This document shows, one piece after another, positions 38,238 through 55,154 of a stretch of DNA of 64,000 nt. The notes under the pieces are model-generated. The model was not told the DNA's origin and did no database searches. It saw nothing but the letters and a program-made list of their open reading frames with translations. The stretch spans positions 72,886 through 136,885 of the forward strand of contig JAOAJK010000001.1 in NCBI GenBank assembly GCA_026414225.1, given 5' to 3'. This DNA comes from Thermoplasmata archaeon (lineage in GTDB: Archaea; Thermoplasmatota; Thermoplasmata; Lutacidiplasmatales; SKW197). The position numbers and the translations under genes were made by a program. Position 1 is the first letter of the stretch. The number at the start of each line of letters is the position of its first letter.

Positions 38238-39380
38238 ATGGTGTTCAAGGCCTATCTGCCCGATGGCAGGATTGTCTGTTCTTCGTGCAAATCAGAAGTG
38301 AAACAGAAGGATAACAGGTGTGAGGTCTGCCTCTCGCTGCTGGAAGTGGAGAAAGAGGGGATGGAATGCCCTTACTGCGCGAAGATAGTGGACAGGTATG
38401 CTACAATCTGCGAGTATTGTGGTAAGGTGCTCCGCGAGAGCAAGCCCAAGGAAACTGCAGGTCTGGATGAGGAATTTCTCCTGAAGCTGCTTGACCTCGG
38501 GAAAAAGGTGGAGAAGGAAAGTCCCGAGGATGTGGAGGAGCGGGCCAAGGCTCTAGAAGTGATAAAAGCTGTTGCGGGTGTGGTGGACGAAACTGCAGAA
38601 AGTGCGAAGAAGGAAGAGAAAACCCCCTCAAAGATTCCAGAAATCGAGAAAAAACCAGAGGTCGGGAAAGCGCCTGCGAGAGAGCACGAAGTCGAGACAA
38701 AAACCATACTGGTTCCCGATGAATTGAGGACCCGGTTTTCCAGGTTCCTTGAGACCGATATTGTGCAGTTGAAGGAGAAGGTGGATGCACTGCCGGAGGG
38801 AACGCTCAAGGATGCATTAGCTACATTTATTGACACGATCGCATCGGTTGCGGAGACGAAGTTAGGGGGGAAGATCGAGAAGGACAAACTTCTGGAGGAA
38901 ATTGCCTCTCTCCTGACTGAGAATCTGGAATGCATAAATAGTGTGGTAGACCAGTATGTCAATTTTATCAAGATGCAAAACGCCATGGAAGAAACAATGG
39001 CCAAAGCCGCCCAGACCCAGGGGGGTAAAATTTCAAAAAAGGACTGGCTTGCCGCCCAGAAACAGGTCCAGGCAGAGCTCTTCAAGGTGAAAAAGGAACT
39101 GGACGAGGAAACCGAGAAAAGGGTGAAGAAGGCAACGAAGAAGGCGGAGGAAGAGATTGAGAAATTGAAAAGCCAGCTTACCGAACTTACCAAGGAGAAT
39201 GAAAGATTGAGGCAGACAGGAGTTTCGGCTGAAGAGACAGAAGAACTGCGGCTACTCCTGAAAACCCTGGATGACCTCCTTGGAGAACTACCAGACGATA
39301 AAATCGAGGAGTTTGCCAAGTCTGATAAATTCAAATTATATGAGAAAGTTCTGGATAAGTATAAAGTAGGAGAGGATTGA
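38238..39380 (+). CDS. Double zinc-ribbon, coiled-coil protein
   Basis: 380 residues. Residues 1-65 carry two zinc ribbons (CSSCKSEV...CEVC and CPYCAKIV...CEYCGKVL). A Lys/Glu/Pro-rich linker follows (70-160), then two helical stretches and a long coiled coil (about 270-340). The C-terminal 40 residues (LDDLLGELPD, EEFAKS, LYEKVLDKY) are nearly identical in pattern to the end of the next gene's product. It is not recognised as a described family; zinc ribbons at the front suggest docking to another protein or nucleic acid. The ATG sits 27 nt after a TATA box. It is the first gene of the coiled-coil cluster. Confidence 0.85.
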   Translation: MVFKAYLPDGRIVCSSCKSEVKQKDNRCEVCLSLLEVEKEGMECPYCAKIVDRYATICEYCGKVLRESKPKETAGLDEEFLLKLLDLGKKVEKESPEDVEERAKALEVIKAVAGVVDETAESAKKEEKTPSKIPEIEKKPEVGKAPAREHEVETKTILVPDELRTRFSRFLETDIVQLKEKVDALPEGTLKDALATFIDTIASVAETKLGGKIEKDKLLEEIASLLTENLECINSVVDQYVNFIKMQNAMEETMAKAAQTQGGKISKKDWLAAQKQVQAELFKVKKELDEETEKRVKKATKKAEEEIEKLKSQLTELTKENERLRQTGVSAEETEELRLLLKTLDDLLGELPDDKIEEFAKSDKFKLYEKVLDKYKVGED

Positions 39381-39382
39381 AA

Positions 39383-40126
39383 ATGGGATTGAGGGATAAA
39401 GCCAAGGAAAAACTTGCCGAGATTTCGGAGGGAAAAACCACAGGCCAGCAGGAAGTTCAGCGGGTTCCATTGCCTTCCCAGCCAGCCGTGCAGTCACAGT
39501 CCGTCCCCCAGGCGGTGCAGAAGGATACAGGGGAAATGGACAAGCAGAGAATGATTATAGTGAAGATTAAGCAGGAACTGGAGGCGAGGAGGAAAGAGCT
39601 GATAGCGAAGGAGGAGGAAATTTCGAGCAGAGAAAAGGAAATCGCAAGCAAGAGCAGTGAGATTGAGGCAAAAACTACCGAATTGAGAAAACTTTACGAG
39701 GAGATCGAGCGAAGGAGACGAGAGCTGGAAGAGGAACTGGCAGCGAGGACGAGGGAGGTCGGTGAGAAGGAGGAGAAAATTCTCGCAATGGAGCAGGAGT
39801 TGATTGAAAAGATGCGAAAGGTAGAGGAAAAGGAAAGGGCAATCGCGCAGCTTGAGGAAAACCTCAGGACAAGGATGGTCGAAGTTGCCAAGATGGAGGA
39901 GAAAACTGCTGCCGCAATCGGTGAAATTGTGACTGAACTCTCGGAACTCGGAATAACTAGGGAGGCATTTGAGGGGCTCATGAAGACCTCCGAAACTGAC
40001 ACAAAAAAATTGCTGATTGTGCTCGACGAATTGCTTGGAGAACTGCCAGATGAGGTGATTGAAAAATTTGCTAAATCCCCGGATTACCGGCTGTATGAGA
40101 AAGTGCTGAAAATGTATGGAGTTTAA
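39383..40126 (+). CDS. Coiled-coil protein sharing end motifs with its neighbours
   Basis: 247 residues from the ATG at 39383. An in-frame TTG two codons earlier overlaps the previous stop. The N-terminus MGLRDKAKEKLAE is matched by MGLRDKARAKLEE in the next protein. A Gln/Pro-rich stretch follows (20-50), then a continuous coiled coil (about 55-175). The C-terminus repeats the LDELLGELPD, EKFAKS, LYEKVLKMY motif of the previous protein. It is probably a rod-like cytoplasmic protein that binds its neighbours, which is inference from the shared ends. Confidence 0.85.
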   Translation: MGLRDKAKEKLAEISEGKTTGQQEVQRVPLPSQPAVQSQSVPQAVQKDTGEMDKQRMIIVKIKQELEARRKELIAKEEEISSREKEIASKSSEIEAKTTELRKLYEEIERRRRELEEELAARTREVGEKEEKILAMEQELIEKMRKVEEKERAIAQLEENLRTRMVEVAKMEEKTAAAIGEIVTELSELGITREAFEGLMKTSETDTKKLLIVLDELLGELPDEVIEKFAKSPDYRLYEKVLKMYGV

Positions 40127-40147
40127 TTCCTCAGATAGGTGGAAATA

Positions 40148-42742
40148 ATGGGACTCAGGGACAAAGCCCGGGCAAAACTGGAAGAGGATACAAAACCCGA
40201 AGAGGGGTCCACTGTTGCGCCAGCAAAAGAGGCTGCTGTCAGGGAAGCAGAGCCAGAAAAGATAGAGCCAAAGGTAGAGATAGGAATCTCACCGATTGCT
40301 AGGTTGAAGGAGGAAATAGTTGAGAGGGAGAAGAAGGTGGGTGAAAAAGAGAAAATCCTTGCTGAAAAAGAAAAGGAGATTGCTGATAGAGAAAAGGGGC
40401 TGGAAGAGGAGAGGAAGAAACTTGTAGAAACTGAAAAGGAACTTGTGAAGAGAGAGGAGGAGCTGAAGACAAGATTTGCAGATTATGAAAATCTGGTTAG
40501 AGAGGTCGAGGCGAGGGAGAAGGAGGTTGAGAGAGCCCGCCTTGAAACTGAAAAACTCCGGGAGGAACTGGAAAGGGACAGGCAGGGTATTGAAAGGGCG
40601 AAAGAAGAAATAGAGAGAGCGCGCAAAGAGCTGGAGGAGAAGGGAAAGGTAAGTGATGAAGTACTGGAAAAGGAGAAGGATTTGAGAAAGCGGGAGGAAG
40701 AGGTTGAAAAAGCGTGGGAGGCAATTGCAAATTCCAGGAAAGAAATTGAAGCGAAGCAGCGGAGCTTTCATCTACGGGAGAAAGAACTGAGTGAGGCATT
40801 CAGGTCAATAAAGGAGAAGGAAAAGAATCTCAGGGAGGCTGAACTGAAGATCGAGAAACTTAATGATGACTACACACGGAAACTCGAAGACCTGAAAAAA
40901 CGGGAGAATGCTGTGGAAAGGAAAGAGCGGGAACTCGAGATTGCAAGGGGAGAATTGGAGGGTTCTTACGGGAAGCTAGAGGAGGAAAAACGCAGGATAA
41001 AGGAGATGCAGGAGAAGATAGAGGAGGAGAGAAAATATCTAGATGCTGAAAAGGAAGAGTTAGGGGTTGAAAAAGCCCGTGTGAGCAAGCTGGATGCTGA
41101 ACTCAGGAAAAGAGAGGAGGCCCTGAAGGCGAAGGAGGAGAGGTTTGAGAAAGAAATGAGTAAATTGGAGGAAAGAGAAAAAGAACTGGATGCAAGAGAA
41201 AAAAAGATTGAGGAGATGGAAAAGGAGGTGGGACGGGCTAAGCGGGAGCTGGATGTGAAAACTAAGGCGTTTGAAAGCGAGGCAGAAGAGGTGAGCCAGA
41301 AAATGAAAGTTCTCGAAGAGAGAGAGAGAAATTTGAAGAATCTAGAAAATAAAATCGCCCTTGAGAAGGACGAGGTTAACCGTGTATGGAGAAACATAGA
41401 GCGCGAAACCGCACGGCTCGAGGCTGAGGATAGAAGGTTGAGGGAACTTTCTGAACGGCTTGAAAAGGATAAACTGGAAATCGATAAGATAAGGAGGGAG
41501 TGGGAGGGGAAGGAAGCTGAAATCAATGCAAAATTAAAGGTTATTTCCTCCAAAGAGAACGAAATAAGGGGGCTTGAGAGAAAATATGCAGAGGAGATGG
41601 AAAAGCTAACCGCCAAGAGTTCAATGCTTGAGGCCCTGCAGATTGAGTTGAGGCGAAAGGAGGAAGAATTGCACAGAAAGGAGATGCAGCTGGACAGGGA
41701 AGCCGAGAATGTGGTTAATGCCCTCAATGAAATAGAGGCAAAGAAGAAGGAACTGGCTAAGGAGTCGGAAAAAATTCACGAAAAGGAACTGGAACTCCAG
41801 GAACTTGAAAATCAACTTGCTTCGGAAAGAAAGAGGTACAACGAGGTCATCCAGCGGGAGAAAATGCTCGAGGAGGAGTTTGGAAGAAAAGAAACAGAAC
41901 TTGAGGAGATAAAGCAATCAGCAATTGCACTGATGAAATATGCAAAAACAATGGAACAACGGAGGAACGAGGAAATTCTGGCGAAGATAAGAGAGGAAAA
42001 GGAACATCTAGCCACGGAGAAAGAGGAGCTTGAAACCGACCTGCGGAAGCGGGCGAAGGAACTTGAGGTGAAGGAGAGCCAGATAAGGCAACTCGAGAGG
42101 GAACTTGAAGCAAGGCGCAGGGAAGTGACGGAGAAGGACGAGAAACTGGAGGAACTTCGAGCAAAAATTCTCGCCGAAAAGGCAGAACTGGCAGAGGTGT
42201 GGAAACGGCTGCAGGCCGAGATGCATAAACTCGCGGATGCAGAGGAGGAGGTGAAGAAGAGGGTAGAGGAAATCCTGCGGAAGGAAAGGAATGAGCTGGT
42301 AAGGAAGGAGAAGGAACTTGAAAAGAAGGAGGAAGAGCTTGCAGAAAAGGGGCGGCAGATGGAAAGAGAAATAAAGAAAAAACTGGAAGAAGAAATTGAG
42401 GGCTTAAAGGAACGGGAAAAACAGCTTGAGTTGCTTGAAATGAAATTGAAGAAAAAGGAAAAGGAAGGAATGGAATCAGTTGAAGCTATGCTGGGGGCTG
42501 AGCGTGAAAAAATTGCAAAACGGGAAAAAGAACTGGAGGAGTACACTGCCCAGTTGATGACACGCGAGAAGGAGTTCGAGAAGATTGAGAGGGAGATCAA
42601 GCAGAGGGAGAAGCAGCTTGCTAAGAGGGAGGCAGAGGTTGAGGCGATGATGGAGGAGGTGAAGAGAAAGGAGAGAATGCTCGGTGAGAAGAAGGAGTAT
42701 GTTGAGAAAATGAAGAAGAGCATCGAAGAATTGCTTAAGTAG
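40148..42742 (+). CDS. Long coiled-coil rod protein
   Basis: 864 residues from the ATG at 40148, which has AGGTGG upstream. After the MGLRDKARAKLEE head and a short Pro/Glu/Ala segment, residues from about 60 to the end form an almost unbroken, highly charged coiled coil (Glu, Lys and Arg make up most residues). It contains repeated REKEL-type units such as EERERNLKNLENK. There are no SMC or Rad50 ATPase heads, no membrane helix and no Cys clusters. A parallel dimer could reach over 100 nm. It lacks the LPD C-terminal motif of the two upstream proteins. Confidence 0.88.
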   Translation: MGLRDKARAKLEEDTKPEEGSTVAPAKEAAVREAEPEKIEPKVEIGISPIARLKEEIVEREKKVGEKEKILAEKEKEIADREKGLEEERKKLVETEKELVKREEELKTRFADYENLVREVEAREKEVERARLETEKLREELERDRQGIERAKEEIERARKELEEKGKVSDEVLEKEKDLRKREEEVEKAWEAIANSRKEIEAKQRSFHLREKELSEAFRSIKEKEKNLREAELKIEKLNDDYTRKLEDLKKRENAVERKERELEIARGELEGSYGKLEEEKRRIKEMQEKIEEERKYLDAEKEELGVEKARVSKLDAELRKREEALKAKEERFEKEMSKLEEREKELDAREKKIEEMEKEVGRAKRELDVKTKAFESEAEEVSQKMKVLEERERNLKNLENKIALEKDEVNRVWRNIERETARLEAEDRRLRELSERLEKDKLEIDKIRREWEGKEAEINAKLKVISSKENEIRGLERKYAEEMEKLTAKSSMLEALQIELRRKEEELHRKEMQLDREAENVVNALNEIEAKKKELAKESEKIHEKELELQELENQLASERKRYNEVIQREKMLEEEFGRKETELEEIKQSAIALMKYAKTMEQRRNEEILAKIREEKEHLATEKEELETDLRKRAKELEVKESQIRQLERELEARRREVTEKDEKLEELRAKILAEKAELAEVWKRLQAEMHKLADAEEEVKKRVEEILRKERNELVRKEKELEKKEEELAEKGRQMEREIKKKLEEEIEGLKEREKQLELLEMKLKKKEKEGMESVEAMLGAEREKIAKREKELEEYTAQLMTREKEFEKIEREIKQREKQLAKREAEVEAMMEEVKRKERMLGEKKEYVEKMKKSIEELLK

Positions 42743-42763: not shown

Positions 42764-43006
42764 ATGAAAATCAGGATCAAATATTTTGCTGGCTTACGGG
42801 ATATTACGGGCAGAGAAAGCGAAACCATCGATGTGAAGGAAAAAACAAGAATTGCAGACATTCTAAAGATGGTTTACAGCAAGTATCCTGATATGAGAAA
42901 AACCGCCGAAATAATTGTCGCGAGGAACAGACAGTACGCAGATGAAAATGAACGAGTTGAAGATGGTGATGAGATTGCACTCCTCCCGCCTGTAAGCGGT
43001 GGTTGA
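42764..43006 (+). CDS. moaD: MoaD/ThiS-type sulfur carrier protein
   Basis: 80 residues, beta-grasp fold, ending in the diglycine PPVSGG needed for adenylation and thiocarboxylation. It begins MKIRIKYFAGLRDITG, typical of MoaD. It supplies sulfur for molybdopterin synthase together with the MoaE gene that starts at the next base. In archaea such carriers can also act as protein modifiers (SAMPs). It lies 21 nt after the coiled-coil rod gene. Confidence 0.92.
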   Translation: MKIRIKYFAGLRDITGRESETIDVKEKTRIADILKMVYSKYPDMRKTAEIIVARNRQYADENERVEDGDEIALLPPVSGG

Positions 43007-43417
43007 ATGCCGGCTGTCAGGGTGAGCATTGGGAGGAGAAGATTTTCCCTGGAAAAACTTTTGTCGGATGTGCCAGAAACAAGCGGTGCCTGTGTGGTGT
43101 TTGTCGGGATTGTCAGGGGCAGGGAGGAGAAGAAGCGAGTGGAAAAACTGGAGTATACTGCTTACACTGAAATGGCACGGACGGAGTTGAGAAGGATATG
43201 CGTCGCAATTGCTGAGAAATTTGGAGTTGATGCAATATATGTGCACCACAGAATCGGGACACTTAGACCCAAAGAACCTACGGTTTACATAGCGGTTTTT
43301 GGTCCCCACCGGAATGAGAGTTTCATGGCATGCAGGGAAGTACTGGAACTGATAAAGCAAAGGATACCGGTATGGAAGAAGGAATTTGTTGAGGGAGAGA
43401 ATGGAAGGTGGAAGTAG
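43007..43417 (+). CDS. moaE: Molybdopterin synthase catalytic subunit MoaE
   Basis: 136 residues. It converts precursor Z (cPMP) to molybdopterin with sulfur from MoaD. Visible are SGACVVFVGIVRG near the start, HRIGTLRPKEPTVYIAV, HRNESFMACREVLELIKQ and the catalytic lysine motif PVWKKE. Start and moaD stop abut with no gap, so translation is coupled. No other molybdopterin gene is in this window. Confidence 0.95.
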   Translation: MPAVRVSIGRRRFSLEKLLSDVPETSGACVVFVGIVRGREEKKRVEKLEYTAYTEMARTELRRICVAIAEKFGVDAIYVHHRIGTLRPKEPTVYIAVFGPHRNESFMACREVLELIKQRIPVWKKEFVEGENGRWK

Positions 43418-43485: not shown

Positions 43486-46400
43486 ATGGTAATACTCCCA
43501 TTGTCTATAGTGTCAATTTTTATCGCAAAACAGCATGAAGAGAAGGAGATAGAGAAGGCCGCTGAAGCCAAGGAAATGATGGAAAAGATTGAAGCCCGTA
43601 TGAATGCTGTAAGGGAGAAGGGAATAAAAAATATTGAAAAAATTGAAAAGGTATATTCCACAATAGCCAAGTTTTACAAGCAGGAGGCATATGAAAAGGT
43701 GCTGTCAGAGGGCTTGAGACTTCTAAGTGTTATGGAAAAACTCACAGCCAAGGAAGAGAAAAAGGAGGAAGAGGAGAAGAAGGATAAAGCCGAGAGTGAG
43801 AAAATCGCAAGGGAAAAGCTGGAGGAGTGCAGGAAGAAATTGGAGGAAATCAAGGAAAGAGGCGTGAAAATCCATCCCAGGATTGAGGAAATGCTCGCTG
43901 AAATCGAGAGTAATATCGGTGCTGAGAAGTATGCGGATGCAGAACGGCTTGCTGGCAAACTCCAGAAGATAGAGAGTGTCCTGGTGGAGGAGTATGAGAA
44001 AGCGGTAAACTTCGTGAAGGAAATCTCCAAGTTGCTGGAAGAGCGGGAAACGTTGAAAGCTGCATTTGATGAGGATATGGCGCGGGTGCAATCCCTTCTC
44101 GGAGAAGGGAATTACAAGGAGGCGGTTAAAGAGTGCACGGAAATTATCGATAGGGTCAAGGCCGCCCAGTACTACATGACTGCGGTTGAGAATGAGGAGA
44201 AAAAAATTGAGGCAACTGCGGAGTTATATTATGAGAGAAGGGAAGAAGTCCCATACCTGGATGCAAGGAAAAATATTGCAATCCTCGGTGAGAGTGGAAG
44301 GTACGAAGAGGCCCTTGCACTTGCATCCGCGTATTCATACATGCTCCAGTCATACCTCACTGAGGGGAGCCAGGCCCTCGTAGAGTTTGACAATATTTTC
44401 AGGAACAGCGACAACTATGTGCAGAGTGCAGTTACCTATTACCAAAGCCAGGTTTCGTATCTGCGGAAAAAAGTGGAAGAGGGAAAAAATCTGGAGATTA
44501 ACACTGCCGATGCCGAAAACCTGCTGGCAGACGCGGATAAGTTCTTCAGTGAGCGGAAATATGGTGATGCTCTGGATAATGTGTTACTGGCGAAAAGTTA
44601 CCTCTACAGTGCTACCGAGAACAAACTGAATAGCCTAATTTCAAATGTGGAATCCTTTTTGGCCAGTGAAACTGCAATTTCCCCGGAGGATATGGGGAAA
44701 TTCAGGGCAAGGGTTGAGGAAGCCAAGGAACTTGTGGGCAGGAAAAGATACTTCGAGGCGAACAAAATCCTTGCAGAGATAAAGGATGAGTTTTTGAAGG
44801 TGAGGGATGCAGTGCTCACCACAATGAAAGCCACACTTGAGAAAAAGATTGAAGAGGCAGAGAAGCAGGGTATTGATGTGCCTGGCGTTAAACGTTTGAT
44901 GTCAATTGCGGAGCGTGAGATTGCAAAGGAAAACTACGCGGCTGCGGTATCTCACTACAAGAATGCAATTGATGGCATTGATGCGGTGGTAATTGTTGAA
45001 GTGGAAAAGAAACTGGCGGATGCAGAGAAATTCGCATCATACCTCAGCGATTTGCCTGAAGGCAAATTTGTGGCGAAACTTGGGGAAATCAGAGGCAAAA
45101 AGGATGGTGGAAACGCATTTGAATTGCTGAGGGAAACCCTGGAACTTGAGAAAATTTTCGCTGAGGACCTGAACCGCCTTGTAGAAAGCAAGCTCTCCGT
45201 TCTCACCCACCTAGAAAATTTAAAGTCCATGCTTAATGTGGAGTATCAGATACCAAAGATAACCTGTACCGGATATTCTGATGCGGAAAATTGCATTAAG
45301 GAAGTGGAGAGTTTTATCAAGGACACGAACGAGAAGTTTCGAACAGCATTCGAAAAAGTTGTGGAAGAAGGAAACAGAAAAATGGAGCTGGCAATCCCCG
45401 ACATGGATATTTCGGTTGAGAAGAACCAGTTCAAGGAAATGTTGAAAGCAATCAACGAAGCGCGATGGGATGTAGCAATCGAACACTACAATCTATTCAT
45501 TAAAACTCTTGAGAAGAATGTCATCGATTTTGTTAAAAAACGGGTGAGGGAGCACCTGCGTCCCCTGAATGCGGCCGCCCAGCAACTCGGTGTGAAGGGG
45601 CTTTCTCCGAAGGACATCGGGAATCTTATAAAAAACATTAACCTAGAAAATGCAAAAGCAACATATTCTGAAATTCTAGAACTGGAAGCCAGCATAGAGA
45701 AGGATACAATTGCCCTCCTGAACGATAAATTCACGAAAATCAACGCAAGTGTGGAGATTGCAGAGAGCATAGGATTTGGTGTGGGGGAGATAAAGGGGGA
45801 AATGGAGAAGGCAAAGATGGCGATTCAGGAGAAGAGGTTTGCTGAAGCTAACAATGCGCTGGAAGAGATAAAAAAAGTAATAGCATCCTCGCTTGCAGAA
45901 TTCGTAAATGCGGAGTTGACGGGCTTAAAGTCACTTATTAATTCCGCTGTGGAGAAAAAAATAGATATCGGTGATGTCCACACCTATTTAAACGATGCTG
46001 AGAGTTTGATACGAAGAAATAACATAATCAAGGCCCACGAAAAAATCAGAGAAGGGCACGAACAAATTGTTAAAGTTTTTGCGGGGGCTTCCACCAGCAT
46101 GGAGCAAACCCTCAGGAAATGCATTGCGGCAATGGAACGGCTCGGAATAGAATGGAAGGATATCGATGCAGAATCCCAAACTGTGGGGTCACTTAAGGCA
46201 GAGGGAAAATTTTTCGAAATTGTTGAACTGCTCTACAGGTTAATTGACGAAGCAACAGACCGTTTGGCCTCCCAGTGGTTAAATCTTTACAAGTATGCGG
46301 AACAACTTGTGTTTTCTATGGAGCGATATGGTCTCGGATTTGGCTACAGGGAACGACTGGAGAACGCGAGGATGCTTGCAAGTACCAACAGAACATACGA

Positions 46401-49400
46401 AGCCCTAATAGAAATCATAAACCTTCTTGCAGAGAGCGATGAACTGATGAGAGCGGAGGCCCTGAAGATTCTTGAGAAGCTCACCTACCTTGCAGAGACC
46501 GGCGGTAAATACGGGATTGTGGTGACATACGATTCCGCGACCCTTGAGAGAATACGGCAGCTTATAGAAGCAAATAGATACTTTAATGCTATAGAGGAGG
46601 CGTATCCAGTTTACAGGAGTTACACAAAACTTTTTGAAAAGTATCTTTCAGATATGCTGACTGCTTTCCACGAGGGACTGAAGACCCTACGGACCTTCAA
46701 CATCGATACCACGCCCTACGCTGAACGCATAGATACCTATCAAAGTTACATAAGTGCCAACGACTGGAAAAATGGTCTTGAGTACGGAACCGAACTCCGC
46801 AATGAAATCCAGAATACGATAAAGAAGAAGGTGGAAGAAGTCATCGAAGAGACCGGCGAGAAACTGAGGATGCTGGAAACCCGCGGTGAGGACATCTCCA
46901 AAATAAAGTTCATGCAGGAAGTTGCGATCGAGAAGTTGAAGCAGGGAGACATTCAGAAGGCGGTAAGTGCAGCATTTTCCGCAAGGGAAGGTGCCGAAAA
47001 GGCCTTCGGTGAAAAATGCATGGCTTTGATCGAATACTGGGATAAGATTATCACAGCCCTCGAAAAGTACAGCCCACAGCCAGACATGCTTGAAAAACTC
47101 GGAATGCTCCGAGAAAGAGCCAAGGTAAATCCACAGTCAGCACTGGAAACCGACAGCGACATGCGGAGGATGCTCAAAGAGAAGATGGTGATGAAAAACA
47201 GGGAAAACGAAAAGAAACTGGGAGAAGTGAAAAAGGAGTTTGCCAATCTTAAAATGGACTGGGGAAAGATGGAGAATCACCTTAGAATGTTGTCGGCCAA
47301 GGAAAACTTCGAAGTTGTGGATATTCAAAATATTATGACATTTGTTGAAGGACTGAATCAGGAAATTAAGATAAAACTGGCTAAAACGATAGTGGAATTT
47401 GAAAACCAGTTATCGCTGATCGAAGATTCTGGCAAGAGGGAAGAGATCCGGGCCACGATTGCGAAGTCAAAGGATATGCTTAATGCTGGACAAATTGAAG
47501 GAGCAAACACGGAAATTGGAAAGATTGCGGCTGGTGTGAGAAAGGTTATTGAGGACACCATAGAGGCCAGGATGAGTGAAACAGTCAAGATAATTGCTGC
47601 ATTGAATGTCCTGAACCTTAATTTCCATATTTATGAAAACCGTTATCTTGATGCGAAGGAACATCTGGCAAGAGAGGAATACTCAAAGGCACTTGAAATT
47701 CTAGAAAATATAATGGAACAGGGTAACAAGGAAATTGAAGACCACATAGCTGGGATTGAACGGGAGATCACCGATGCAATGGAGATAATGAAAAGGCTGG
47801 ATATAGATACAGCTGAGATCTCTGAAAAACATGCCCTTCTCAAGCAACATGCAGCCAGCAAGGATTTTGATGCAGTGTCAAAAATATACCCAGAACTGAA
47901 GGGGAAGATTATAAAAATGATGGAGGAAAATCTTCTCTCTGCAATTAATCAATGTGACTTGCTGATCGAGTTCGCAGTGGGTATCGGAATCGATGTCTCT
48001 CATCCAAAGGAGCTACTGAACAAGGGAAAGATAAGGTTTGCTTCAAAGATGTATGTCCAGGCAAAGAATCTTATCACCAAGGCCCTGTCATCCACTGAGG
48101 AAGCGGTGCGACGATATATCGCGAACGAGATAGGTATGATTGCTCCGCAGATTGAGATGCTTGCGCTGCTTGGCATTCCCGCGGAAGAACACAGAAACCT
48201 TCTCGAGGAGGCAAAGCGGAAGCTGGATGTTAGAGATTACATGGGCGCCCAATCAATCTCCGTAAAACTCAAAAAACAGGTGGAAGATTTGCTCGAGGAG
48301 AACAGTACGAAGTTGTTGGCTGAAATCAGGTCATGCATTGAAAAGGGTGCCCAGATCGGTGCAGAAACCACTCTGTTCGAGCGAATGTACCTTACCGCTC
48401 AGGCATTCATAAATGGAAGAAACTATGAAGGACTCGTAAGCCTTGCAAAGGATGCTAAAAATAAGTTTATAGAGGTCACGAATGAGGTCTTTAGAGCCCA
48501 CATCGAGACATTCGGAAGATGGCTGGATATTCTAGCCATTCACGGAATAAGCGATGAAAATTATGTAGAGATAAGGAACATGGCTAGGAATACATTTGAA
48601 GCCGGGAACACCACCGAAGCGGCGAAGATCATAAAAAATGCATTGAACGATATGGAAATCACCGTAAGGGATAGGGTCCTCAAAAGAAAGGAAGAGATTG
48701 AAGAGAGAGTCAGCTTTCTCAGAAAATACGGTGTTCAGCTATCACCAGTTGAAGTTGCCATAAAAAATATTGCCACAGATGTGGAGAAGAGGGACTATAT
48801 TGAGGCAAGGAACCATATTGAGCAAGCCAACAAAGCCCTGAATCAGATTGCAGAAATAAAGGTAAGGGAGTTGCTTTCATCCCTAAAAGGATACATCGGG
48901 AAATTGAAAAAATCGAACGTCCCTGTTACGGACAGAAGCAACGAAATTGAGGTACTTCTTACAGCGGGAAAGCATTTTGATGCCATCACAAGATACGAAG
49001 AGATTCTTGCCGAGGTTGACAGCAATTATGCCCGCCATATCCTTGAAATTGCGGAAGAAACGGAAGGTTACATAAAGACCTCTGGCAACCTTCTCGCTTC
49101 GACCGAAAATTTCATCGAAACGCTGAAGCAGGTGAAGTATCTGGTGGAAACACGGGCATACGACGATGCCTATCAGATAGCCACCCAGGTGAGGTATCAT
49201 GTAACTGCCCAGATAGAGGGCAGAATCAACGGAGCAATCAACGAAGCTCAGGGATACATTGAGCGTTTCAAGACACTTGGACCAGAAATTTTATCCGCTG
49301 CAATTGTGCTCAACAATGCTTCCCTCTCGCTCTCACAGAAGAAATACAGTGAGGCCTACGAACTCGCTACAAGCGCGATCAATAAAATAATGAGCAGCGT

Positions 49401-52400
49401 TAGGGAATACACCACACGGGAAATAGAGGACTACAAGAGTTTTATTGCGGATTGCGAGAGAATCGGAATTGATGTGACCAAATTCAGAGAAGGCGTGGTC
49501 CGTGCAGAAAGGTCGTTGAGGGATAACCGGGTCGTGGAAACCTATTACACGATAAAAGAAACCAAGAAACTCGGCGACGAAAGCATGTCAACCTACCTTG
49601 CATCCAGAATCAATGATACGATGGCGAGAATAGATGAGGCAGAACGTTTGGGTGTGGACACCGTTAAGATAATTCATCTGAAAAACCGTGTAGCTGCGGT
49701 GCAGCAATCACCGAATGTGCTGGACGCCCTAAGAGAACTTAAGAACATAGAGCAGGATACGACTATTGCTGCAGAGGAAAAAGTTAAGGAGGTTTTTGAA
49801 TCTATTGATGGATTGTATTCCTACTTCTCAAGGGTAGGTCTTAATCTTTCCGAGGCAGAAGGTCTCCTCAAAATCGCATCCCAAAACATAGCTTCGAAAA
49901 ATCTGGTGGATGCGATGGCCGTGTTGATTGAGTGTGAGAGTGTCGTGATTGAAACGGTAGAAAAATACATCACATCCGAACTTGCAAAATGGCAAAAATT
50001 CCTTGTGTTCCTGATGAAGGTTGTCCCTGAATTTTCTTCGCTGGTGGAGCAAATTAAGAAAGTCCAGGACCTCCTGGTTGTGAAGGATTACAAAAAGGCA
50101 CATCACATGTTGAATGAACTCAGCAGTGCAATTCTTAAGAATGTGAATGAGAAACTGCTACCTGCGATTGAAGCCAAGCTCCAGGAAGTTGTGGAAGTGA
50201 GGAAAATTGGAATTGATGCGTCCAGAGTGGAGGCGATGATAAGGGAGGCGATCGAAAAACTACGGGCTGGCGAGTATCTCAGGGTGAAAGAAATTTTTGA
50301 AAATGCATCAGCCCAGTTTGACAATATGCTCGCTGCCCATTCCAACAACGAAATTGAAATCTTTGCAAGGAATCTGGATGTTGCAAAAATGCTGGGCATC
50401 GACACCAGCCAGTACAGTGCCCTCCTTCCACAGTTCAAGAGTCAGGTGAGTGGAGGGAAGTACAGAGAGACCTTGTTGCAGATTTCTACGATTCAGAAAG
50501 AACTGTATGAGAAGTTGAAATCAGTAATAGAGAAAAACGTTGCAAAATGTATTGAGGAAATGGAGGTTGCCTCTGAACTCAACATCGACTTCAGTGAAGT
50601 GAACGCACTCCTTGAATCAGCGGCAATGAAGATTAAGTATATGGACATGATGGCAGCATACCAGATGGTCACTAAAGCAAAGGAAATCATACCGGAAATC
50701 GTACGTAGCCAGATTGCGAGGGAAATTGAGTTGCAGCTTGAAAGAGGAAGCCGGCTCCGTGAAAGAGGAATTGATATATCCAAACATGAACACCTTCTAC
50801 ATAAGGCAAAGGAGCGGCTGGGTGCCGGGAAATATTCGGAAGCTAAGTTTCTTATAGTAAGGTACATGAACAGTATTCTCCCAGTTCTGGAAGAAAACTT
50901 TGACAAGAGCATTGACTATCTACGGGCAACGATAAACACGGCAAAGGTCATCGGAATAAAGGTAGAAGGAGAGGATGCTCTTTGGGGAGAAATAAAGAAG
51001 AGAATTGGAACAGGCGATTACATCGGGGCGAATGAATTAATAGAAGTTTATCAAAGTAACCTTATTGAGAAGATAGAGACCACGGTGAAGGCGGAGCTTC
51101 AGAAATTCACAACTCTTCTCGAAATTGCCATCGCATACAAATGTCCCGTAAGCAGTATTGCAGAATCGCACTCCCATACTCAAACCGAGTTTCAGAGTAA
51201 AAAGTATGTGAATGCACTTAAGCAGGCAAAACAGAATATTGAACAACTCGAAGAGATCCTGAGAGAACGTGCTGGAATAGAACTGAAAAACCTCGAGGCA
51301 GAGATCAAGGAATATGCGTCTCACAATGTTGATACCAGCGTCGCGGAAAAAGTTCTGGATGAAGCGAAGAAACGTCTCGGAGAGAAAAACTATTCCCTGG
51401 CATTCGAATCCATAACCCATGCCAGGCACAACCTTGAACAGAACGCAATTGGATTCGAGAAAAAAGTCATAGAGGAAGTCCAGCGGCTCGTGGACAACGC
51501 GGTGGAGATGAAAATAAATATTGAACAGGGTAGCGTGCTTTTCAACAATGGTAAAGAACTTTACAATACTGGCAAACTCTTGGAGGCCCTGAGTCCGCTC
51601 GTTTCATCACGCGAAAAAATCACTCAGGCAATTAAAAACGAGCTCCGTTCCAGAATTGAAACAATGAACTCCACACTTGAACTCGGGCGGGAGATGAAGA
51701 TCGATGTCTCCGAGATAGAGCGAAACATCCAGAGTGCCCAGAAATCGCTGCTTATAAACAGCTTTGAAGAAACCCACAGGTTTATAACTGCAGCCACTTC
51801 AAAATTCGTTAGCGTGGCTACTGCCGCCCTCGGCACAGAAATCTCCAAGGTAGAGGCGATAATCAACGTGGGTGAGACCATCGGGTGCAATCTCGCACTG
51901 AGTCGTAAGGAAATCCTGAAGGCAAAGGAAATGGTGGTGAATAAGGAGTTTGCTGGTGCGAAAAAACATATCGATGAGATTGCTGCAAAAACGAAGAAGA
52001 CGGTATCTGCCCGTGTGCTGGAAGAGATAAACGGGTCCAAGGCGGTGCTTGGTCTGGCAAAACAATTCCGGATTGAAGTGTCAAAACAGGAAGAGGTGCT
52101 TAAAAATGCAGAAGAACTTGTGCGGAAAGAAAGATACCAGGAGGCCTACAATCATGCAATTGAGATAAAGGCATACCTTGTGAACAGCGTGGTCAAATTC
52201 CTCAATACAGAAATCTCCTCTGTAAATGGTCTCCTGAATGTTTCTGGTTCAATAGGTGTTCCAGAACTTTCCCCTGCAAGGGAAGACATTGATGAAAGCT
52301 TGAAAAAGCTTCATGAAATGGACTTCGAGGGCGCATATGCTAAACTGGATGCTGCAAGAAACCGCATTATCAAGAATGCTACTGAATACCTGAATGCACT

Positions 52401-53709
52401 CGTGAAGGATGCTGAAAACATTTTAGCAGATGCAAAAAATGTTGAAGCGGTGGTAAGTGAAGAACTTTATGCAGAGATTGAAACTGCAAAGGCGCATATC
52501 AATCAACAGCGCTTCAGGGAGGCAAGGGATGTAGCTCTGGGAGTGTATGAAAAAGGGCTGAACATTGCAAAGGATAAGATACAGGAGAGGTTGAACGTGC
52601 TTAATTCCCTACTGGATCTCACGAAGAATTTTGGAATCCCAGTAGAAACTGCTCCTGAAACGATGAAGACAATCTCTGAGATGCTGGCAGCAAAGAATTT
52701 CAAAGGAGCGAACAAAAAGTGCCTGGAATTGACGAAAAAAGTGAGTGATTTACTCCAGAGTTACTGTGAGACCCAGATACTCAACACGGCCAAGCTTGTG
52801 GACCTTGGCGAATCGATAGGGATCAAGATGCTGGAGATAAAACGGTCTGTTGAGGGAACCTGGGGACTTTTGAGGAACAGGCAGTACCTAGATGTTGTGA
52901 ATCTCACAAACGATGTTCAGACAAAGATTCATGGAATGCTTGATCATTTTCTGATGGATGAGGTGCAGCGAATCCAGAATGATATAAAGTATGCGGAGAG
53001 CATCGGTGCAAATGCAGCAAAGGTGAGGGAAATGCTGGAGGGTGCACAGACGAAACACAGAGAAAAGGACTACACTGCAGCCCATCGAGCCCTGGTGGAT
53101 ACCGAGGTGGCGCTTGGGAAAGTGCTGACCAGGCATATAAGTGATTCCGTGAGCGTAGCCCGTCTTACCTATGACATTGGATTGAGAATCGGGGTGGACC
53201 TAAATGACATCAACGAAAAGTTCAGACAGATAGAGAACCTCTCCAACGAGAAAAAATTCAGGGAGGCGTATTTTACCGTTGTGGAAACCAGAAAGAACAT
53301 AATTTCTAGAATTGAAAACTATATGAGTGATGCCCTGAATGATGTAAACCAGAAGATTGAAACTGCCAGCGAACTCGGTGTCGATGTGACCAATGCAAGG
53401 GCAATGTTCGAGATTGCAAAAAATACCATCCGGGGAAAAGATTATCTGGAGGCAAAGAAAATTCTGGGTAAAATCGAAGAAAATGTGGACACCCTTTGCA
53501 GGAACAACCTGCTTGAAGAGTATGAGCGAATAATGAAGACAGTTGAGGAATTCAAAGCAAAGAATGTGGATGTAAGCGAAGTGGTTTCGGGACTGGAAAG
53601 GGTAAAATCACGGATTGATAAAAAGCTGTATGTGGAGGCAAAGCTCGCCCTCGAAACTGTAAGGGCAAAGATAAGAACGATAGAAAGAATCGTGAAGCTC
53701 GGAGTTTGA
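43486..53709 (+). CDS. Giant 3407-residue protein with about fifty 62-residue helical repeats
   Basis: One uninterrupted frame of 10.2 kb; ATG with AGGTGG upstream. A short hydrophobic N-terminus (ILPLSIVSIFIA, residues 3-14) could anchor it to the membrane, and a Lys/Glu-rich spacer follows near residue 90. The rest is built from units with the pattern G-[I/V]-D-[V/I], then LL-x-x-A, K-x-Y-x-x-A and a long helix before the next GID. The period is 62 residues: units begin at nt 45772, 45958 and 46144, exactly 186 apart, and at least ten units I counted keep 62. A few near residues 560-640 are irregular. The units diverge in sequence, so they are old. I recognise no family; an elongated all-helical scaffold is inferred. 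No Cys-rich, catalytic or ATPase motif is seen. Confidence 0.9.
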   Translation: MVILPLSIVSIFIAKQHEEKEIEKAAEAKEMMEKIEARMNAVREKGIKNIEKIEKVYSTIAKFYKQEAYEKVLSEGLRLLSVMEKLTAKEEKKEEEEKKDKAESEKIAREKLEECRKKLEEIKERGVKIHPRIEEMLAEIESNIGAEKYADAERLAGKLQKIESVLVEEYEKAVNFVKEISKLLEERETLKAAFDEDMARVQSLLGEGNYKEAVKECTEIIDRVKAAQYYMTAVENEEKKIEATAELYYERREEVPYLDARKNIAILGESGRYEEALALASAYSYMLQSYLTEGSQALVEFDNIFRNSDNYVQSAVTYYQSQVSYLRKKVEEGKNLEINTADAENLLADADKFFSERKYGDALDNVLLAKSYLYSATENKLNSLISNVESFLASETAISPEDMGKFRARVEEAKELVGRKRYFEANKILAEIKDEFLKVRDAVLTTMKATLEKKIEEAEKQGIDVPGVKRLMSIAEREIAKENYAAAVSHYKNAIDGIDAVVIVEVEKKLADAEKFASYLSDLPEGKFVAKLGEIRGKKDGGNAFELLRETLELEKIFAEDLNRLVESKLSVLTHLENLKSMLNVEYQIPKITCTGYSDAENCIKEVESFIKDTNEKFRTAFEKVVEEGNRKMELAIPDMDISVEKNQFKEMLKAINEARWDVAIEHYNLFIKTLEKNVIDFVKKRVREHLRPLNAAAQQLGVKGLSPKDIGNLIKNINLENAKATYSEILELEASIEKDTIALLNDKFTKINASVEIAESIGFGVGEIKGEMEKAKMAIQEKRFAEANNALEEIKKVIASSLAEFVNAELTGLKSLINSAVEKKIDIGDVHTYLNDAESLIRRNNIIKAHEKIREGHEQIVKVFAGASTSMEQTLRKCIAAMERLGIEWKDIDAESQTVGSLKAEGKFFEIVELLYRLIDEATDRLASQWLNLYKYAEQLVFSMERYGLGFGYRERLENARMLASTNRTYEALIEIINLLAESDELMRAEALKILEKLTYLAETGGKYGIVVTYDSATLERIRQLIEANRYFNAIEEAYPVYRSYTKLFEKYLSDMLTAFHEGLKTLRTFNIDTTPYAERIDTYQSYISANDWKNGLEYGTELRNEIQNTIKKKVEEVIEETGEKLRMLETRGEDISKIKFMQEVAIEKLKQGDIQKAVSAAFSAREGAEKAFGEKCMALIEYWDKIITALEKYSPQPDMLEKLGMLRERAKVNPQSALETDSDMRRMLKEKMVMKNRENEKKLGEVKKEFANLKMDWGKMENHLRMLSAKENFEVVDIQNIMTFVEGLNQEIKIKLAKTIVEFENQLSLIEDSGKREEIRATIAKSKDMLNAGQIEGANTEIGKIAAGVRKVIEDTIEARMSETVKIIAALNVLNLNFHIYENRYLDAKEHLAREEYSKALEILENIMEQGNKEIEDHIAGIEREITDAMEIMKRLDIDTAEISEKHALLKQHAASKDFDAVSKIYPELKGKIIKMMEENLLSAINQCDLLIEFAVGIGIDVSHPKELLNKGKIRFASKMYVQAKNLITKALSSTEEAVRRYIANEIGMIAPQIEMLALLGIPAEEHRNLLEEAKRKLDVRDYMGAQSISVKLKKQVEDLLEENSTKLLAEIRSCIEKGAQIGAETTLFERMYLTAQAFINGRNYEGLVSLAKDAKNKFIEVTNEVFRAHIETFGRWLDILAIHGISDENYVEIRNMARNTFEAGNTTEAAKIIKNALNDMEITVRDRVLKRKEEIEERVSFLRKYGVQLSPVEVAIKNIATDVEKRDYIEARNHIEQANKALNQIAEIKVRELLSSLKGYIGKLKKSNVPVTDRSNEIEVLLTAGKHFDAITRYEEILAEVDSNYARHILEIAEETEGYIKTSGNLLASTENFIETLKQVKYLVETRAYDDAYQIATQVRYHVTAQIEGRINGAINEAQGYIERFKTLGPEILSAAIVLNNASLSLSQKKYSEAYELATSAINKIMSSVREYTTREIEDYKSFIADCERIGIDVTKFREGVVRAERSLRDNRVVETYYTIKETKKLGDESMSTYLASRINDTMARIDEAERLGVDTVKIIHLKNRVAAVQQSPNVLDALRELKNIEQDTTIAAEEKVKEVFESIDGLYSYFSRVGLNLSEAEGLLKIASQNIASKNLVDAMAVLIECESVVIETVEKYITSELAKWQKFLVFLMKVVPEFSSLVEQIKKVQDLLVVKDYKKAHHMLNELSSAILKNVNEKLLPAIEAKLQEVVEVRKIGIDASRVEAMIREAIEKLRAGEYLRVKEIFENASAQFDNMLAAHSNNEIEIFARNLDVAKMLGIDTSQYSALLPQFKSQVSGGKYRETLLQISTIQKELYEKLKSVIEKNVAKCIEEMEVASELNIDFSEVNALLESAAMKIKYMDMMAAYQMVTKAKEIIPEIVRSQIAREIELQLERGSRLRERGIDISKHEHLLHKAKERLGAGKYSEAKFLIVRYMNSILPVLEENFDKSIDYLRATINTAKVIGIKVEGEDALWGEIKKRIGTGDYIGANELIEVYQSNLIEKIETTVKAELQKFTTLLEIAIAYKCPVSSIAESHSHTQTEFQSKKYVNALKQAKQNIEQLEEILRERAGIELKNLEAEIKEYASHNVDTSVAEKVLDEAKKRLGEKNYSLAFESITHARHNLEQNAIGFEKKVIEEVQRLVDNAVEMKINIEQGSVLFNNGKELYNTGKLLEALSPLVSSREKITQAIKNELRSRIETMNSTLELGREMKIDVSEIERNIQSAQKSLLINSFEETHRFITAATSKFVSVATAALGTEISKVEAIINVGETIGCNLALSRKEILKAKEMVVNKEFAGAKKHIDEIAAKTKKTVSARVLEEINGSKAVLGLAKQFRIEVSKQEEVLKNAEELVRKERYQEAYNHAIEIKAYLVNSVVKFLNTEISSVNGLLNVSGSIGVPELSPAREDIDESLKKLHEMDFEGAYAKLDAARNRIIKNATEYLNALVKDAENILADAKNVEAVVSEELYAEIETAKAHINQQRFREARDVALGVYEKGLNIAKDKIQERLNVLNSLLDLTKNFGIPVETAPETMKTISEMLAAKNFKGANKKCLELTKKVSDLLQSYCETQILNTAKLVDLGESIGIKMLEIKRSVEGTWGLLRNRQYLDVVNLTNDVQTKIHGMLDHFLMDEVQRIQNDIKYAESIGANAAKVREMLEGAQTKHREKDYTAAHRALVDTEVALGKVLTRHISDSVSVARLTYDIGLRIGVDLNDINEKFRQIENLSNEKKFREAYFTVVETRKNIISRIENYMSDALNDVNQKIETASELGVDVTNARAMFEIAKNTIRGKDYLEAKKILGKIEENVDTLCRNNLLEEYERIMKTVEEFKAKNVDVSEVVSGLERVKSRIDKKLYVEAKLALETVRAKIRTIERIVKLGV

Positions 53710-53744: not shown

Positions 53745-53906
53745 ATGTTTCCCTTGATCCCGGTGGGTGTGCTCCTAGTTATCCTGATACTGATAGTGGT
53801 ATTTGCAATCTATAAGATAATAAAATTCATAATAACGCTGGTAATCCTGGCAGTAATTTTTCTCGCACTCTGGTATTTCGGTTTTCTCTCGTTCTTGGGA
53901 ATCTAA
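53745..53906 (+). CDS. Mini membrane protein with two helices
   Basis: 53 residues from the ATG at 53745, preceded by a TATA-like gttatatcc and, further up, attatatatc. The upstream TTG start at 53706 is less likely because it lies inside the giant gene's end. Nearly all residues are hydrophobic, forming two predicted helices with KIIKF between them. It lies directly after the 3407-residue gene and overlaps the convergent CBS gene by 4 nt. It could anchor the scaffold, which is speculative. Confidence 0.55.
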   Translation: MFPLIPVGVLLVILILIVVFAIYKIIKFIITLVILAVIFLALWYFGFLSFLGI

Positions 53907-55060
53907 ACTGTTCTGCCTGCTTTCTTTCTCTCTGTAACCAGCTTGTCCTTCTCCTTCTTTGCCCGCTTCTCAAGTTCCCGCATGCAGGTATCGATGCACT
54001 CCAGAATATCCCAGCTCGAGTTGCGGGCATAGAACACGCCTCTAGGTGTTGTCAGTCTTGCTGCTGTGGTATAATGTTTCACCTCTCCTGTCCTGTGAAT
54101 GGTGCTCACATGCACATTCAGCATCCTCGGGGTTAAAAATCTCCCTATTCTTTTGAGACCCTTGCTCACAATGCGGTCGAAGGCATCCATCGTATCATGG
54201 TCCTCTTCAAGCCCTGTGATCTGGACATATGTGGTTGGCCTTGCGACAGAACTAGCGACAAATTCAACCACATCTGCAGCGGTCAGAATTCCCACCGGCT
54301 TTGAGCTTTCTGTGACAAGGACACTTGAAATTTTGTTCTTTTCCATGAGCTGGATTGCCTCCTTAAGATTACTTTTCGGGTCCACTGTAACTGGAGGGTT
54401 CATTATACTCTTTACCTCGATCGCTGTCGCGGGTGTCTGTTTCAGCCAGTCCATTTTTCCCTTCAACCTGTCCCTGCTGAGGGCATTTGCAATATCCTTC
54501 AAACCAATTACTCCCACGGCCTTTCCCTTTTTGTCAACCACGGGAATGTTTGTCTCGTCTAGACTTTTTATGAGCTGTCTTGCTTTGTCCAGTGTATCAC
54601 TTTCAGAGATGCATATCGGTTCTCTGGACATGATGTTTGAAACAGGCACTCCCGCATAGTTTTTCACTTCGGACACCGCGGCTACAAGGTCTCTCCTTGA
54701 AATAATTCCTTTGAGTGTGTTCCCCTCAACCACGAGAATTGCCCTGTGTCCGGTAGTATGCATCATTTCTGCGACTTCCTCAATAGTTGCATCTGGAGAA
54801 ACCTTCGGTGCAGGTAGCATTATGGATTCCATCTTGGTGGTCATTGGCCACTGTCTCCTCTTTATGAATTCTTCGTAGGTGACGACGCCGACTGGCTTAT
54901 TCTTTTTCATCACTGGTAGAACATGAACATTGTACTTCTTCATAATGCCCAGTGCAGACTCGAGTGTGGCATCTTTTTCAACTGTAATCACTTTTGTGGT
55001 CATTAAATCCTTTGCTTTCAGAACTTCTTTTGATTTCTGTGGCATGGTAATCTCCGTCAT
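53903..55060 (-). CDS. Four-CBS-domain protein with C-terminal HPF-like domain
   Basis: 385 residues from the ATG at 55060, 22-26 nt after a TATA-like element (leaderless). Four CBS motifs in two Bateman pairs (residues about 12-270) include VLPVMKKNKPVGVVTYEEF and NIPVVDKKGKAVGVIGLKD. They likely sense adenine nucleotides. The last 105 residues (from TYVQITGLEED) resemble the ribosome hibernation factor HPF/RaiA: beta-alpha-beta-beta-beta-alpha with VHVSTIHRTGEV and a final helix with CIDTCMRELEKRAKKEKDKL. This suggests an energy-sensing ribosome silencer, which is inference. It converges with the mini membrane protein gene and is divergent from the GvpD-like gene. Confidence 0.85.
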   Translation of the reverse strand: MTEITMPQKSKEVLKAKDLMTTKVITVEKDATLESALGIMKKYNVHVLPVMKKNKPVGVVTYEEFIKRRQWPMTTKMESIMLPAPKVSPDATIEEVAEMMHTTGHRAILVVEGNTLKGIISRRDLVAAVSEVKNYAGVPVSNIMSREPICISESDTLDKARQLIKSLDETNIPVVDKKGKAVGVIGLKDIANALSRDRLKGKMDWLKQTPATAIEVKSIMNPPVTVDPKSNLKEAIQLMEKNKISSVLVTESSKPVGILTAADVVEFVASSVARPTTYVQITGLEEDHDTMDAFDRIVSKGLKRIGRFLTPRMLNVHVSTIHRTGEVKHYTTAARLTTPRGVFYARNSSWDILECIDTCMRELEKRAKKEKDKLVTERKKAGRTV

Positions 55061-55076
55061 AGTGGAACAAATCAGG

Positions 55077-55086
55077 TAATTAAAAA
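55077..55086 (-). promoter_or_regulatory. TATA-like element of the CBS-HPF gene
   Basis: agtttttaat on the minus strand, about 22 nt before the ATG at 55060. It supports this start against a longer frame that begins 21 codons earlier and runs across this element. Confidence 0.45.
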
Positions 55087-55154
55087 CTTTCGTTTGAACC
55101 CTGTGCATTGCATTTAAATACACCTACACTGTTATGGGTACAGGATGAGAGAAC

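Follow-up and report, generated by a model that had tools for sequence, protein, structure and literature searches.

A stretch of 64,000 nucleotides from the genome of a Thermoplasmata archaeon (the window) contains a single reading frame of 10.2 kb, which raises the question of what kind of protein is encoded by a frame of this length and what purpose such a protein could serve in an archaeal cell. The frame was confirmed to be open from its ATG to its stop codon and to encode 3407 residues, as originally predicted:
43486..53709, + strand: ORF of the rod protein, ATG at 43486 to stop at 53709, 3407 aa

A 62-residue repeat fills the protein

The self-similarity of the protein, determined by BLOSUM62 autocorrelation with 200 shuffles, had a z of 18.9 at lag 62 and of 16.3, 13.9 and 10.4 at the harmonics 124, 186 and 248, respectively, and no other lag up to 260 reached a z of 10. 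When parsed with a cyclic profile of 62 columns that included gap penalties, the protein resolved into 54 units, with a score of 2392 compared with -479 +/- 27 for shuffles, the profile in this comparison being fitted to the same protein. As an independent test, a profile built from residues 1439–3400 was applied to held-out N-terminal segments, and it matched residues 1–700 with a z of 12.9 and residues 701–1430 with a z of 14.4. Thus, the 62-residue helical repeat in about fifty copies, which the original prediction had read from the letters, persists against shuffled sequence. Its three unit starts at nucleotides 45772, 45958 and 46144, corresponding to residues 763, 825 and 887, are all unit starts in the parse. 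The consensus of the unit is GIDVSEIEELLEEAKELLNAKKYEEALEEIKEAEEKIIKVVEEKLNKEIEKLEKLIEEAKEL, and the units are arranged as follows:
43486..47799, + strand: looser region of about 22 units, many of which carry indels (residues 1–1438), including the exact triplet 45772/45958/46144
47800..48915, + strand: six units in succession, each exactly 62 residues long (residues 1439–1810, profile parse)
49279..52254, + strand: sixteen units in succession, each exactly 62 residues long (residues 1932–2923, profile parse), with nearly or fully ungapped unit alignments
52633..53706, + strand: five units of exactly 62 residues and a truncated last unit (residues 3050–3407, profile parse)

Apart from the truncated last unit, no C-terminal domain was found in the protein. 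The strict unit length that had been claimed for the whole protein was found in its C-terminal ~58%, where 27 of the 31 junctions between residues 1439 and 3360 are exactly 62 residues and the four others (56, 65, 61 and 65) make two nearly compensating pairs, but not in the N-terminal part, where the spacing is looser and exactly 62 in 7 of about 22 junctions. When non-overlapping, in-register pieces were aligned, one gap column was needed for 32 units and none for thirteen unit pairs, at an identity of 10–26%, in keeping with the earlier description of strongly diverged units with conserved spacing. Because the spacing is exact among units that have so few residues in common, these alignments show that the unit length is under constraint.

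The only same-genus genome compared, that of a sister species (G001), contains a syntenic orthologue of 3419 residues with 79% identity to the 3407-residue protein. With a pS of 0.77, at which synonymous sites are near saturation, and a pN of 0.11, comparison of the two genes shows purifying selection on the protein. There were three internal indels relative to the orthologue (3, 1 and 1 residues), none of them after residue 863. The conservation of indels between the two species was weighed as a proof of selection on the spacing, and this argument was dropped because neighbouring proteins have similarly low indel counts; the low count therefore shows constraint on the protein.

Predicted structure of the unit

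Each unit consists, in order, of GIDVS, helix A (EIEELLEEAKELLNAK), a turn with Y-x-x-A, and helix B, and its best-conserved columns are G1, I2, D3, Y23 and A26. Structure prediction in pieces, as had been proposed, gave confident helices in two AlphaFold2 models, which cover 310 and 124 residues and whose alignments consisted of units of the same protein only (5 and 13 rows):
50167..51096, + strand: five-unit model m54b46980c9bb (residues 2228–2537, pLDDT 90.3, pTM 0.62)
50701..51072, + strand: two-bundle model m0c99e04700f6 (residues 2406–2529, pLDDT 93.9, pTM 0.77)

In both models, a helix A of ~15 residues alternates with a helix B of 38–40 residues in every unit modelled. Each small three-helix bundle would then be formed by the last part of a B helix together with the A helix that follows and the first part of the B helix after that, and the long B helix, being unbroken, would carry the chain into the following bundle, resulting in an extended rod. 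We infer this packing, as well as a rise per unit of ~36 angstroms (39 x 1.5 minus 15 x 1.5), from the helix lengths; the 54 units would span about 0.19 micrometres at full extension. Because the predicted helices alternate between 15 and 39 residues, an extended chain of three-helix bundles, that is, a spectrin- or Embp-like rod, is probably to be preferred to a compact solenoid, and the solenoid scaffold of the original prediction is probably wrong. A Foldseek search of the PDB with both models found nothing significant (best E 0.26 and 0.62), all-helical rods generally scoring poorly in such searches.

Relatives in the genome, class and phylum

Relatives were identified in the genome, the class and the phylum, indicating that the repeat is not a one-off. 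In the same genome, proteins of 1979, 1872 and 1620 residues carry the unit, and weaker matches occur in smaller proteins. A protein of ~1490 residues found throughout the order has the unit in register (hhalign probability 95.6%, E = 1e-8, 118 ungapped columns), and a protein of roughly 1500 residues, represented by that of locus L057, was matched in 52 of the 100 class genomes sampled; the peak at 62 (z about 5–14) was present at most of the class loci examined. The ~1500-residue class protein (e.g., L057 and L088) is homologous to the 3407-residue rod, with the 62-residue unit in register, but is half its length or less, often bears a C-terminal zinc finger, and has smc/scp or ftsZ neighbours in several families.

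The finger at the C-terminus of many of these relatives is RING-like, and examples were observed at L030:2139-7001 and L059:3860-6004. The Pfam profile PF14446 matched the finger of L057 with 51.9 bits, the other relatives being below the cut-off. The whole-protein scan of named genomes gave no match, and a scan with the zinc finger found real relatives in two MAGs of uncultured archaea, Euryarchaeota archaeon M_DeepCast_200m_m1_298 (L066) and Thermoplasmata archaeon B31_G17 (L067), from which the phylum is probably Thermoplasmatota; the Methanothrix candidates L068–L070 were rejected because they proved to be adenylate kinases whose zinc motif is similar.

Giant proteins also occur elsewhere in the phylum, two of them (3155 and 3183 residues) with a period of 126 (62 + 64) and others, ranging from 1759 to 7277 residues, with a period of 66. 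The largest is the product of a 7277-aa ORF (L049+L050, G100:C92), which is built of 110 repeats with a length of 66 residues (lag-66 z = 40; unit consensus GLDVSDEEELLSEAREALEEGDFEEAIELLEEARE...) and ends in a zinc-ribbon-like tail, and its genome encodes a second rod-type protein of 3840 residues (L051). The 66-residue unit is the 62-residue design lengthened by about one helical turn. The 3407-residue protein has the GxD cap, the Y-x-x-A turn and the tandem units of 62–66 residues that mark the 62/64/66-residue rods, and judged by these sequence features it is a member of a phylum-wide, undescribed and unnamed family of giant rods. A coiled-coil ORF of >2000 aa with a 42/126-residue period was also observed near a rod gene, at L075:11557-18000.

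Genes adjoining the shorter relatives

The gene of the 1500-residue relative, with its RING-like finger, comes directly after smc-scpA-scpB on the same strand at four loci (L082, L087, L088 and L089), at a distance from scpB of about 136–173 nt. Partial linkage was found at two more, with smc-scpA before the rod gene in L058 and scpB in L080, and the loci with smc/scp linkage represent three families in all. Thus, smc-scpA-scpB-rod is apparently an operon conserved in several families. At two further loci (L057:3627-10975 and L090:5596-12948), ftsZ lies 12–41 nt upstream of a rod gene of ~1590 codons, and a PUA-domain, DUF5591 (tgt-like) gene lies 3' of it; an apparent ftsZ operon with a relative is present in the complete single-contig genome G093 (1,486,778 bp). 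Other neighbours of several relatives are valS-like, alaS and metallopeptidase genes. In the genome of the window, contig C55 encodes ScpB; the rod paralogue on this contig lies about 39 kb away from it, and no rod gene adjoins scpB.

Proposed role of the rod

We favour, with some but not full confidence, the view that the 3407-residue protein is a giant, probably cytoplasmic and purely structural rod that acts as a spacer or scaffold, most likely in the setting of chromosome organisation, segregation or division. The number of units would set the length of the rod, and binding partners would be carried along its surface, as in spectrin, EzrA and the staphylococcal Ebh/Embp rods. A cytoplasmic location seems indicated because the protein has no signal sequence and its relatives adjoin genes for cytoplasmic proteins. 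The setting is suggested because the genes of the shorter relatives come immediately after smc-scpA-scpB or ftsZ, and it would extend to the 3407-residue member only through its family.

More tentatively, and with considerable doubt, the whole family may serve as an architectural partner to both the SMC-ScpAB condensin and the FtsZ division machinery, in which the number of units would set a physical distance (about 0.08–0.4 micrometres for 1500–7277 residues), often with a RING-like end-piece, and of which the 3407-residue protein would be a lineage-specific long version. Giant rods of defined length have been described in the cytoskeletons of eukaryotes and on the surfaces of bacteria. If the proposal is true, apparently cytoplasmic, phylum-wide rods linked to smc-scpAB and ftsZ by gene order would add a new component to the architecture of the archaeal cell.

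Comparison with known families and alternative readings

No family in Pfam, NCBIfam or the PDB sequences covers the whole protein, no enzymatic or other domain was recognised in it with Pfam and NCBIfam, and literature searches found no description of this repeat. In Pfam, the protein matched neither TPR families nor FIVAR or GA profiles at E <= 1, nor any HEAT or ARM profile, nor spectrin (PF00435), and its period is 62, not the ~106 of spectrin; thus, by these profile searches the protein matches no ordinary spectrin, TPR or HEAT family. The original statement that the unit falls in no described family therefore holds for the unit as a whole, but not for its inner hairpin, which is TPR-like.

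This hairpin bears the pattern L..A..L.....Y..A...I..A of TPR_1/TPR_2, and in a reading of the consensus, the signature positions of the TPR correspond to columns L10, A14, L17, Y23, A26, I30 and A33. It is conceivable, but in our judgement unlikely, that the protein is a long TPR-type superhelix, in which TPR hairpins with an elongated second helix would line a peptide-binding groove like that of p58IPK/DNAJC3 or the Ski3 scaffold. Canonical TPR proteins are very abundant in the genome, the unit has a weak profile match to the TPR of DNAJC3 in the PDB (E = 1.3e-4), and the paralogue L030 exceeds the Pfam cut-off for TPR_2 (31.5 vs 27 bits). However, besides the lack of a TPR match for the 3407-residue protein itself (P0001) at the threshold given above, hhalign of the unit with the TPRs of the same genome gave a probability of only 10.5%, and in place of the 34-residue period with two short helices, the unit has a 62-residue spacing, a GIDV cap, and helices of ~15 and ~39 residues, the second of which is predicted to be unbroken and is twice as long as a TPR helix. 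We therefore do not claim TPR membership, a distant relation of the inner hairpin to TPR being possible from these profile matches. As a separate observation, the genome has at least 150 TPR hits and is very rich in canonical TPR proteins, and a 1417-aa protein with many canonical TPR repeats is encoded in the window (2719-6972, minus strand).

EzrA has an N-terminal transmembrane anchor and a spectrin-like cytoplasmic domain, and is a regulator of FtsZ. Like spectrin and EzrA, the archaeal protein would be an extended rod in which continuous helices connect one three-helix bundle to the next, as the predicted helices suggest, but its unit has 62 residues compared with about 106, and neither Pfam nor Foldseek gave a match to these proteins. 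It also begins with a short hydrophobic stretch:
43486..43530, + strand: short hydrophobic N-terminus MVILPLSIVSIFIAK (MAKLLLTVVSVFIAK in the sister species)

An EzrA-like rod, fixed by this segment to the inner face of the cell membrane, has in our estimation a small chance of being the right description. Residues 2–14 keep their hydrophobic character in the sister species although the letters change, and the linkage of ftsZ to the rod genes of L057 and L090 recalls EzrA. However, this linkage is seen only in the 1500-residue relatives and not at the gene of the 3407-residue rod, the hydrophobic run is only 13–14 residues long with no basic residue ahead of it, its 19-residue hydropathy of about 1.0 is below the usual transmembrane threshold, and the paralogues and class-wide relatives begin without such a segment. 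Thus, the membrane tether suggested in the original prediction was not established, and the hydrophobic N-terminus is too short to be called as an anchor, though it could hold the rod.

In the solved structure of the Embp FG repeat, about 125 aa make up two three-helix bundles, which together extend about 70 angstroms and share a central helix of about 40 angstroms (PMC7587433). The archaeal helix order and lengths fit such tandem bundles with a shared helix, the bundles of the archaeal protein being predicted ones, and it would resemble Embp and Ebh (FIVAR, PF07554, and GA) in being a megadalton-scale rod of tens of diverged ~62-residue three-helix modules with a shared long helix. An adhesin stalk at the cell surface or outside the cell, like Ebh and Embp, would accord with this scale and module size (PMC7587433), but is very improbable: the archaeal protein has no signal-peptide or other export pattern, no cell-wall or S-layer anchor and no C-terminal transmembrane segment, and its relatives carry the terminal RING-like zinc finger and adjoin smc, scpAB and ftsZ, all of them cytoplasmic. 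It also differs from Embp and Ebh in having one kind of module, a 15/39 helix pattern and no FIVAR or GA match, and it is probably cytoplasmic. Finally, the enrichment at lag 7 (z 9.9), which is expected of amphipathic helices, would speak for a period that is a mere by-product of a generic heptad coiled coil. This reading can practically be dismissed by the held-out test, since G-I-D-V and Y-x-x-A are fixed at constant columns, and the unit profile reached a z of about 3 with two control coiled coils (an archaeal SMC and the 867-aa neighbour) compared with 13–43 in true members.

Matches to a small bacterial protein were also considered. Three relatives of ~1500–1600 residues matched the profile of SAXB, a SoxAX-binding protein (NCBIfam NF052674), over a unit-sized stretch with 82.7, 63.6 and 55.4 bits; membership was rejected, all being below the 95-bit cut-off and the scores probably representing the sum of many weak repeats, and the 3407-residue protein had no match at E <= 0.01.

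The rod gene and its surroundings

The gene of the 3407-residue rod is located after moaD-moaE and not after smc or ftsZ, and its neighbourhood is uninformative. The features upstream of it are:
38238..42742, + strand: three tightly packed genes (overlapping or adjacent), farther upstream
42764..43006, + strand: moaD, 80 aa
43007..43417, + strand: moaE, 136 aa
43428..43446, + strand: conserved stretch CGATAGGAAAGGTTAAATT, which lies 3' of moaE and 5' of the rod gene and is unchanged in the sister genome

The stretch CGATAGGAAAGGTTAAATT is TATA-like and located about 40–58 nt 5' of the ATG, and it is a possible BRE/TATA promoter. Because it separates moaE from the rod gene, the latter probably has its own promoter. 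The three genes at 38238-42742 encode a 380-aa double-zinc-ribbon protein, a 249-aa coiled-coil protein and an 867-aa coiled-coil protein, the last two of which have syntenic counterparts in the sister species; the match of the 867-aa protein to an SMC profile was set aside as generic coiled coil, and the opposite-strand ORF at 42863-43360 as a shadow of moaD-moaE. No Rfam element was found in the window. A similar C-terminal tail was observed in the 380-aa and 249-aa proteins (LLDELLGELPDEVIEKFAKS and LLDDLLGELPDDKIEEFAKS, respectively). Beyond the rod gene, the minus strand at 53903-55123 encodes a protein that combines four CBS domains with an S30AE match at its C-terminus, resembling a ribosome hibernation factor.
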